A stretch of 64,000 bases of DNA. Origin: Candidatus Reidiella endopervernicosa. GTDB lineage: Bacteria > Pseudomonadota > Gammaproteobacteria > GCF-013343005. The stretch is from positions 496,001 to 560,000 of the forward strand of contig NZ_CP054491.1 of NCBI RefSeq assembly GCF_013343005.1. Reading direction: 5' to 3'. This document shows, in pieces, positions 32,401 to 34,669 of this stretch. Within the stretch, counting starts at the first letter, position 1. The number at the start of each line of letters is the position of its first letter. Under the pieces are notes generated by a model, which did not search any database, had not been told where the DNA came from, and saw nothing but the letters and a program-made list of their open reading frames with translations. The translations under genes were made by a program, and so were the position numbers.

Positions 32401-32522
32401 TACGCTCAGGGTTTTCTTTATCCAACATCAGGAGTTCGTCTCACCAGCACTTATTGCGGTGAGATAACCGCTCTGCTAGCATCTCCCACAATTCGAAACA
32501 GACTTAATTACGGAGGGTACTC

Positions 32523-32561
32523 ATGATTGTAATCAACACCTTCCGGGCAACCAGCAAGTAA
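32523..32561 (+). CDS. Putative 12-residue leader peptide upstream of rsgA
   Basis: ATG at 32523 with a strong ribosome-binding site (GGAGG, about 7 bases upstream) opens a frame encoding MIVINTFRATSK and a TAA. It ends about 100 bases before rsgA and is followed by strong RNA structure. The placement resembles a translated leader that controls downstream expression. Only position and ribosome-binding site support it; no codon enrichment points to a particular amino acid. Confidence 0.4.
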   Translation: MIVINTFRATSK

Positions 32562-32580
32562 CAAATCGCTACTGCTCCTT

Positions 32581-32658
32581 GCCCGGTCTCTGGACCGGGG
32601 CAGACCAACGCCCCTCAAGAGTAAATCTACTCGGCGCACAACCGCGCCAGGGGTTCTT
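32581..32658 (+). promoter_or_regulatory. Structured rsgA leader that can mask the ribosome-binding site
   Basis: A 7-bp hairpin CCCGGTC-TCTG-GACCGGG (32582-32599) is followed by CGCCCCT (32609-32615), which can pair with the rsgA ribosome-binding site AGGGG at 32649-32653. GCGC segments between them could add an inner stem. Masking of the start would give translational control. This is read from sequence complementarity; no known riboswitch class was recognised. Confidence 0.45.
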
Positions 32659-33702
32659 ATGTCAAATCAATACTCGCTCGCCCAACTGGGCTGGCAACCA
32701 TTTTTCCAGCAACAGATCTCACTCGAGGAGTGGGAACCCTCTATCTTTGCCCGTGTTGCTAGCTATCAGCGTTCACAGATCTCACTGTTCACCGTTGACG
32801 GACAGCGCACGCTATCGGTAACACCCAATCTGCCACCGATCACCGTTGGCGACTGGCTACTGCTCGGCAGCGATGGAAGCTTTCAGCGACTGCTCGAACG
32901 TCGTTCACTCTTTTCACGCAAGGCGGCGGGCAGCAAGGTTGAACGTCAACTGATTGCTGCCAATATCGATACGCTCTTTATCGTCACCTCGCTCAACCAG
33001 GACTTCAGTCTCAGTCGTATTGAGCGTTACCTGTCACTGGCTAAGCAGAATGACGTCGAGGCGGTCGTGGTGTTGAGCAAATCTGATCTCTGTGACGATG
33101 TCGATAACTACCGTGATCAGGTTGAAGCGCTCGATCCACTACTATCGGTTGTTACAGTAAATAGTCTCGATCACAGCAGTACGGCTACGCTTGAGTCCTG
33201 GTGTGGTAGTGGGCAGACCGTTGCACTGCTCGGCTCATCAGGTGTCGGCAAGTCGACGTTAATCAATACGCTCTCTGGCACAACCACTCAGGCGACCGCC
33301 TCGATACGCGAAGATGACAGCAAAGGTCGGCATACAACCACTGGACGTTCGCTACATCTATTAAACTCTGGTGGACTGTTGCTCGACACACCGGGTATGC
33401 GAGAGCTACAACTGGTCGACTGTGAGGAGGGGGTAGAAGAGACCTTTGCCGAACTGCACACACTCGCGCAGCAGTGTCGCTTCTCCGACTGCCAACATCA
33501 TTCGGAACCCGGCTGTGCCATACAGGCAACAATTGACGCAGGCAGCATCGATGCACGTCGACTCTCCAGCTATCAGAAGCTGCTTCGTGAGCAGGCCTTC
33601 AATAGCGCCACTCTGGCTGAGAGGCGTGATCACGATCGCAACCTGACACGCTACTATCGGTCGGTCCTGACTGAGTCGAAAAGATTCAAGGAGCAGGGAT
33701 AG
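32659..33702 (+). CDS. rsgA: Ribosome small-subunit GTPase RsgA
   Basis: Circularly permuted GTPase acting late in 30S assembly. It has 347 residues. The OB fold is N-terminal (about 30-100). GTPase motifs appear in permuted order: VLSKSDL (G4), [16 protein letters not shown] (G1), then [14 protein letters not shown] and DTPGMREL (G3). The C-terminal zinc site is [21 protein letters not shown] lies 5 bases before the ATG and may be masked by the leader. It is followed at once by arfB, and both concern ribosome function. Confidence 0.95.
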
Positions 33703-33706
33703 TCTC

Positions 33707-34129
33707 ATGGCACCGTTAACCATCAGCAATAGCGTCACGATCCCAGAGGAGGAGATCGAACTGACAGCCATCCGCGCCCAGGGCGCGGGTGGTCAGAACG
33801 TTAACAAGGTCTCCTCGGCGATCCATCTGCGCTTCGATATCAGAGGCTCATCGCTTCCTGAAATCTATAAAGAGCGGTTATTGGTGCAACGCGATCGGCG
33901 CATCAATAGCGATGGCGTTATTGTGATCAAGGCGCAACGCTTTCGCACTCAGGAAAAGAATCGTGATGATGCACTGGAACGTCTCAGGGAAATCATCAAG
34001 GCAGCGATGGTCACACAGAAAAAACGTCGTCCGACCAAACCATCAAAGAACTCACAGAAACGTCGACTCGACAGTAAGGCCAAACATGGCAAACACAAGG
34101 CACTACGTGGTCGCGTCAGAGAGGATTAA
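33707..34129 (+). CDS. arfB: Alternative ribosome-rescue factor ArfB (YaeJ)
   Basis: Peptidyl-tRNA hydrolase that frees ribosomes stalled on mRNAs without a stop codon. It has 140 residues. The GGQ catalytic motif is in [20 protein letters not shown], and the C-terminal basic tail ([16 protein letters not shown]...) is the part that enters the empty mRNA channel. It starts 4 bases after rsgA, an arrangement consistent with a ribosome-quality operon. It is too short to be a full RF1/RF2. Confidence 0.95.
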
Positions 34130-34132
34130 TTC

Positions 34133-34669
34133 ATGGCCATCAAGGCAACCATTTTTAAGGCTTCACTACAGATCACCGACATGGACCGCAACTACTACCA
34201 GGGGCACGAGCTGACCATCGCTCGTCACCCTTCAGAAACCGATGAGCGAATGATGCTGCGACTACTCGCCTTCGCCCGGCACGCCGATGAGGCGCTCACC
34301 TTTACCAAGGGAATCAGTACCGACGATGAACCTGACCTGTGGCGCATGGATCTGACCGGCGCGATTGATGAGTGGATAGAGTTGGGGCAACCCGATGAGA
34401 AACGCATTCGCCAAGCCTGCGGTCGCTCTAAACAGGTGATCATCTACTGCTACAGCGGTCACAGTGCTGAGCTATGGTGGGAACAGTTAAAGGCAAAGGC
34501 GGCAGGAATTAAAAACCTTAGCATCTATTCGGTCGCACCAGAGAGCTGCAAGACGCTGGGAACACTTGCCGAGCGCAACATGCAACTACACACCACCATT
34601 CAGGATGGTGATATCTGGTTTGGTAATGATGATCAAAACCTCGCTATCGAGATCTCAACCTGGCAATAG
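34133..34669 (+). CDS. yaeQ: YaeQ family protein
   Basis: A 178-residue protein of the YaeQ family, which has a PD-(D/E)XK nuclease-like fold and was first linked to suppression of RfaH loss. The start MAIKATIFKASLQITDMDRNYY and the following HELTIARHPSETDERMMLR are family signatures. It starts 3 bases after the arfB stop, completing an rsgA-arfB-yaeQ unit. The biochemical role of the family is not settled. Confidence 0.92.
   Translation: MAIKATIFKASLQITDMDRNYYQGHELTIARHPSETDERMMLRLLAFARHADEALTFTKGISTDDEPDLWRMDLTGAIDEWIELGQPDEKRIRQACGRSKQVIIYCYSGHSAELWWEQLKAKAAGIKNLSIYSVAPESCKTLGTLAERNMQLHTTIQDGDIWFGNDDQNLAIEISTWQ

Follow-up and report, generated by a model that had tools for sequence, protein, structure and literature searches.

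A divergent rsgA paralogue lies in the window (the whole stretch of 64,000 nt of Candidatus Reidiella endopervernicosa DNA that was analysed) behind a leader that is likely to act as a translational attenuator of the erm/toiL type, in which a ribosome stalled at the start of a short leader ORF would induce an accessory RsgA. The model joins computed elements, namely conservation, ruler spacing, co-variation and a folding switch, to steps that we infer, namely the stalling, its signal, the induction within living cells and the advantage that RsgA would bring. The predicted helices of the leader form a chain (Z:A, A:B, B:C, C:D and D:E) in which neighbouring helices compete. The parts of the locus are as follows, with ON and OFF for an exposed and a covered Shine-Dalgarno sequence (SD) of the rsgA paralogue.

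32474..32482, + strand: extended -10 promoter element TGCTAGCAT (recurring TGNTANNNT before leaders)
32511..32518, + strand: segment Z, CGGAGGGT, the SD of the leader ORF, which can pair with A5 (sequence, folding, permutation)
32523..32561, + strand: leader ORF MIVINTFRATSK, stop TAA (M-I-V ORFs upstream of relatives, ATG-ATH-GTN enrichment)
32538..32550, + strand: segment A, inside the leader ORF, partner Z or B (fixed start in curated leaders)
32538..32545 and 32543..32550, + strand: sub-segments of A, A5 ACCTTCCG and A CCGGGCAA, respectively
32579..32586, + strand: segment B, TTGCCCGG, partner A (ON) or C (OFF) (A:B covariation)
32594..32601, + strand: segment C, ACCGGGGC, partner B (OFF), or D (ON) via GGGGC 32597-32601 (folding, curated pairing)
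32610..32615, + strand: segment D, GCCCCT, anti-SD, partner C (ON) or E (OFF) (folding, permutation, curated pairing)
32619..32648, + strand: two small hairpins, GAGTAAATCTACTC and GGCGCACAACCGCGCC, enclosed by D:E (predicted in every state)
32649..32654, + strand: segment E, AGGGGT, the SD of the rsgA paralogue (D:E duplex permutation)
32659..33702, + strand: RsgA-family GTPase paralogue of 347 aa, the regulated gene (PF03193 2e-50, TIGR00157 156 bits)
33707..34129, + strand: arfB, directly downstream (NF006718 197 bits; neighbour in the window genome only)

The leader ORF consists of 12 codons and a stop (ATG ATT GTA ATC AAC ACC TTC CGG GCA ACC AGC AAG TAA) and has a strong SD, CGGAGGG, which contains GGAGG. 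Between the ORF and GCCCCT stand a stable hairpin (TGCCCGGTC...GACCGGGGCA) and GC-rich inverted repeats. The original prediction had named a 12-residue frame with a strong GGAGG, a stable hairpin and a CCCCT block able to pair with the rsgA site AGGGG, and each of these was found where it should be (32523-32561, GCCCCT at 32610-32615, AGGGGT at 32649-32654). This anatomy stands; the pairing of the leader ORF with the hairpin (A:B), the pairing of the ORF SD with A (Z:A), the status of the gene as a paralogue and the lack of conservation of arfB had been overlooked. Conservation, covariation and folding simulations all lend good support to the proposed control in cis by a leader peptide together with masking of the ribosome-binding site; that the leader would sense the state of the ribosome is the natural reading of the model.

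The rsgA paralogue and its leader in relatives

The window gene belongs to the RsgA family of GTPases (PF03193 and TIGR00157 above cut-off), in which the Cys/His zinc motif C-x4-C-x-H-x5-C is conserved. The same genome holds a second, canonical RsgA of 336 aa (C1:2404428), which shares 43-53% identity with the main RsgA in most relatives and about 30% with the window RsgA. By its sequence, the window gene is a divergent RsgA paralogue and not the house-keeping RsgA. No leader was found upstream of the canonical rsgA of the window genome, which lies in a tight operon with a spacing of 37 nt; at this locus (L144:638-2039, corresponding to G000:C1:2404037-2405438) the gene 37 nt upstream of rsgA is small and looks like a putative pterin-4a-carbinolamine dehydratase. 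Among 23 genomes checked, most of those with a leader also keep the canonical copy, and several genomes (G226, G010, G366, G170, G012) have only the leader-gene type of RsgA, without a leader. Both RsgA copies were present in 12 of 13 genomes with a leader versus 4 of 9 without (one-sided Fisher about 0.02, computed by hand with relatedness ignored and with G103 omitted as incomplete), which suggests that the leader serves the accessory rsgA copy.

The presence of arfB behind the gene had been taken as support for the sensing of ribosome state, and this argument fails, since arfB lies downstream of the gene in the window genome only and is absent in the other 20 relatives read (21 loci). A conserved operon with arfB is thus ruled out, and no shared operon partner of the rsgA paralogue was seen in the other genomes read. 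Within the window, arfB and a YaeQ-family gene follow closely behind the rsgA paralogue (33707-34669) and probably form one operon with it.

Loci were gathered from whole genomes and from named genomes, and 109 were left after one duplicate had been dropped. Leader ORFs beginning with M-I-V (or a close variant) and provided with an SD were found at 37 of the 109 loci, and 33 of these 37, from gamma- and alphaproteobacteria and upstream of distinct relatives of the gene, were kept as a curated set in which a short leader ORF with an SD-type motif (predicted by sequence) precedes the gene. Leader-bearing examples are strains of Vibrio and Alteromonas, Colwellia, Neptunomonas, Ferrimonas, Pseudomaricurvus, Thiodiazotropha and Reinekea, with Cribrihabitans and Rhodobacteraceae on the alphaproteobacterial side; part of the relatives are without any leader. 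In two alphaproteobacterial loci (L106, L114) a sequence like the small SRP RNA, recognised by eye, lies directly before the leader.

In the -260..-60 region (21,751 nt), the motif ATG-ATH-GTN was counted 28 times, compared with 41 times in 750,494 nt of other sequence, which amounts to a 23.6-fold enrichment. A strict pattern, GGAGN{3,10}ATGATTGTN{10,14}CCGGG, gave five matches in 369 genomes, four of them directly before the rsgA paralogue and the fifth, a coding chance match, within a coding sequence whose motifs we take, by recognition, to be uracil-DNA-glycosylase-like; a control pattern gave no match in the same genome scan. Among held-out relatives, which were fetched later and played no part in forming the rule, all elements were present in L147, L148, L149 and L150, and no leader was found in L146 and L155-L158. 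Neither a second leader copy in the window genome nor a plasmid match to the leader sequence was found. Peptide and pairing were both found to be conserved when compared across relatives, as the original prediction had asked.

Transcript, codon 2 and early codons of the leader

Of the 33 leaders, 21 have the extended -10 element TGNTANNNT in the interval -90..-20 relative to the leader ATG (1.3 expected), mostly at -38..-61. This implies that the leader probably has its own transcript, for which we infer a start at about 32490 in the window; a general sigma-70 scan, which also requires a -35 hexamer, found no promoter at the leader. Control by transcription attenuation or Rho-dependent termination in place of translational control is very unlikely, since the + strand of the leader holds no intrinsic terminator with a U-run and the last helix covers the rsgA SD itself; Rho termination does follow translational repression in toiL-topAI (PMC12121999) and could add to the rsgA switch.

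Codon 2 is ATT in 29 of 29 M-I-V leaders, GC-rich genomes included (log10 P -14.3 given the Ile usage of each gene), and the wobble base of Val codon 3 varies among leaders. Val at position 3 and a hydrophobic residue at position 4 are conserved, and the stop position and the remaining peptide vary. At the site corresponding to 32526-32531 of the window, variants of codon 2 still end in T before GTN. The conserved residues would fit an ErmCL-type arrest, in which the M-I-V-hydrophobic chain together with a small molecule stalls the ribosome and the RNA switch is unchanged. We regard such nascent-peptide stalling as rather unlikely, as chains at codons 2-4 are very short and barely reach the tunnel and selection on the peptide leaves the invariant ATT unexplained. 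As judged from sequence, codon 2 points to a constraint at the RNA level besides the peptide; a complementary ACAAU partner for AUGAUUGU was not found above chance.

Alternative helices, the ruler and simulated ribosomes

The leader folds at -57.9 kcal/mol versus -42.1 +/- 3.2 kcal/mol for dinucleotide shuffles (z -5.0, 0/200), and the region downstream of the leader ORF gives a z of -3.15. When the RNA was folded with the ORF, A:B and C:D formed and the rsgA SD was largely free of D; when it was folded without the ORF, B:C and D:E formed and the SD was buried. These two folds were the seed of the switch model, in which mutually exclusive helices (A:B versus B:C, C:D versus D:E) join the leader ORF to the SD of rsgA.

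RNAalifold on a MAFFT alignment recovered only 4 pairs, without two-sided changes or covarying pairs, owing to spacers of different length and to helices that are alternative to each other; tests with swapped partners were used in its place. Over the 33 leaders, own partners formed better duplexes than swapped ones for A:B (z -5.9; shuffled-partner control -1.5) and for D:E (z -3.3 to -3.4, 2/2000; control -1.0). The Z:A helix is supported in the closest group (group 1) only (z -2.8, control -0.6, 2/2000 permutations), since over all leaders it is weak and the reversed-partner control is nearly as strong (z -2.4, against -2.5 for own partners). In curated blocks, A:B was paired at 79% with 27 two-sided changes, versus 66% and 10 with swapped partners (0/5000), D:E at 88% versus 69% (0/5000), and C:D, more modestly, at 80% versus 75% (131/5000); the registers of C:D and D:E were set by hand in these counts, which favours pairing, a bias that the duplex tests do not share. 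Among the A/B pairs are CCGGGCAA/TTGCCCGG in the window, CCGGGTTA/TAACCCGG in L032 and CCGGGTAGA/TCTACCCGG in L034.

As far as Rfam 15 is concerned, it is correct that the leader belongs to no known riboswitch class: strict and permissive scans gave nothing at gathering score and chance matches only (E 3-5). Together with the conservation of the ORF start and the ruler, next to hairpin arms that vary freely, the lack of an Rfam match makes it most improbable that a protein or metabolite binds the RNA (autoregulation by RsgA, or a riboswitch) and that the ORF is incidental, even though the leader is structured and RsgA is a protein that binds the 30S subunit. The small hairpins at 32619..32648 likewise vary among relatives.

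In 19 of 19 curated leaders, segment A (CCGGG or its equivalent) begins 19-21 nt after the first base of the leader ATG, and in the same leaders B is found at +44..+98 and E at +106..+200. The 3' edge of ribosomes stalled at a start codon lies at +16..+18 (PMC12121999), so that a ribosome at the start just clears A and a ribosome further along covers it.

Translation was simulated by a block of 31 nt shifted codon by codon, with co-transcriptional folding ignored. Averaged over the 33 leaders, the rsgA SD had an accessibility of 0.35 when the ribosome was placed at the start, and of 0.24 both for later positions and for RNA without a ribosome. The difference between start and late positions was 0.104 versus 0.008 with shuffled spacers (p 3e-4) and was positive in 24 of 33 leaders. 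In the window, accessibility at codons 1-3 was 0.32, 0.31 and 0.42, and from codon 4 it was 0.02-0.07; it also falls at codon 4 in the held-out L147, L148 and L150, and no folding switch was shown in leaders L037, L068, L069 and L097.

In the window, RNA without a ribosome is about as open (0.40) as RNA whose ribosome sits at the start (0.32); the absence of translation could thus also mean ON. A sensor of missing initiation would be ON when the leader ORF is left untranslated for want of competent 30S subunits and OFF when ribosomes run through it, and it would agree with the window, where A:B and C:D already prevail in the free RNA, the SD is partly open and the elongating state closes it. 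Across the 33 leaders, however, free RNA is as closed as elongating RNA and only the start-held state is open, in the closest group Z:A would keep the free RNA shut, and the +20 ruler has no role in such a sensor, which we therefore consider unlikely.

According to the attenuator model, the mRNA would start at the promoter that closely precedes the leader ORF. In the resting state, the helices Z:A, B:C and D:E would be formed, or fast ribosomes would run over A; B would then take C, and D would cover the rsgA SD (OFF). A ribosome that lingers at the start or first codons, because its passage from initiation into elongation is slowed or blocked (by a drug or by faulty subunits), would melt Z:A and would leave A free, because A begins at +19..+21, just past the ribosome edge. 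Free A would take B and C would take D, leaving the accessory rsgA with an exposed SD (ON); the RsgA made in this way might help 30S subunits.

Known attenuators and a second leader type

In attenuators of the ermC/ermA type, a leader peptide and alternating helices release an SD when a ribosome stalls in the leader, features which the proposed rsgA switch shares. Their stalling depends on macrolides and the nascent chain and takes place deep in the leader, and their genes are methyltransferase genes of Gram-positive origin, whereas the ruler of the rsgA leader points to codons 1-3 and its gene encodes a ribosome-assembly GTPase. The PA5471.1-armZ leader of Pseudomonas aeruginosa likewise has a short leader peptide responsive to ribosome inhibition; it differs in its unrelated gene and peptide, and its action is ascribed to transcription attenuation.

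Among tested systems, toiL-topAI of E. coli comes nearest: there, too, a short leader ORF provided with an SD of its own lies about 140 nt upstream and the SD of the main gene is masked, and ribosomes held at the start codon by tetracycline or retapamulin open the masked SD (PMC12121999). It is a toxin-antitoxin operon in which the RNA of the toiL ORF pairs directly with the topAI SD (PMC12121999), whereas a relay of five alternative helices would pass the signal in the rsgA leader, which has another peptide and another host range. Leader ORFs also control the ribosome-associated factors VmlR, Vga(A) and MsrD, which aid stalled ribosomes (PMC9226507, PMC10314930); these are ABC-F ATPases and not RsgA, and vmlR is subject to transcription attenuation too. 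Drugs that act at the start codon are inferred for vmlR and vga(A), as cited in a passage of PMC12121999. The open-access papers searched held no earlier description of an rsgA leader, and, as far as found, this kind of attenuator is already known, and the regulated gene, the helix relay, the ruler and the family are new.

If the model is true, a GTPase of ribosome assembly that has until now been regarded as a house-keeping protein also exists as an inducible spare copy under the control of the ribosome. This would offer a handle on the role of the accessory RsgA in coping with start-arrested ribosomes or defective 30S subunits, and the leader could serve as a natural reporter for arrest at start codons among Gram-negative bacteria, marine vibrios included. 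Moreover, the leaders might constitute a widespread and hitherto undescribed proteobacterial class, in which a fixed +20 ruler reports ribosomes stuck between initiation and elongation and a dedicated second RsgA answers; we put this forward tentatively, at slightly less than an even chance. Such a class would provide cells with a checkpoint in cis for faulty 30S subunits or for drugs that arrest ribosomes at the start. The AUG AUU GU constraint may bear on early elongation.

A second type of leader (MDTVISAGL.., MDIAAAAGLRT) precedes the same gene family in L046, L048, L051 and the held-out L160-L163. In the simulation, L160 and L163 opened at codons 7-10 and not at codons 1-3, and L161 was mixed; the opening of the first two at codons 7-10 suggests that the MD-type clade may read another position.
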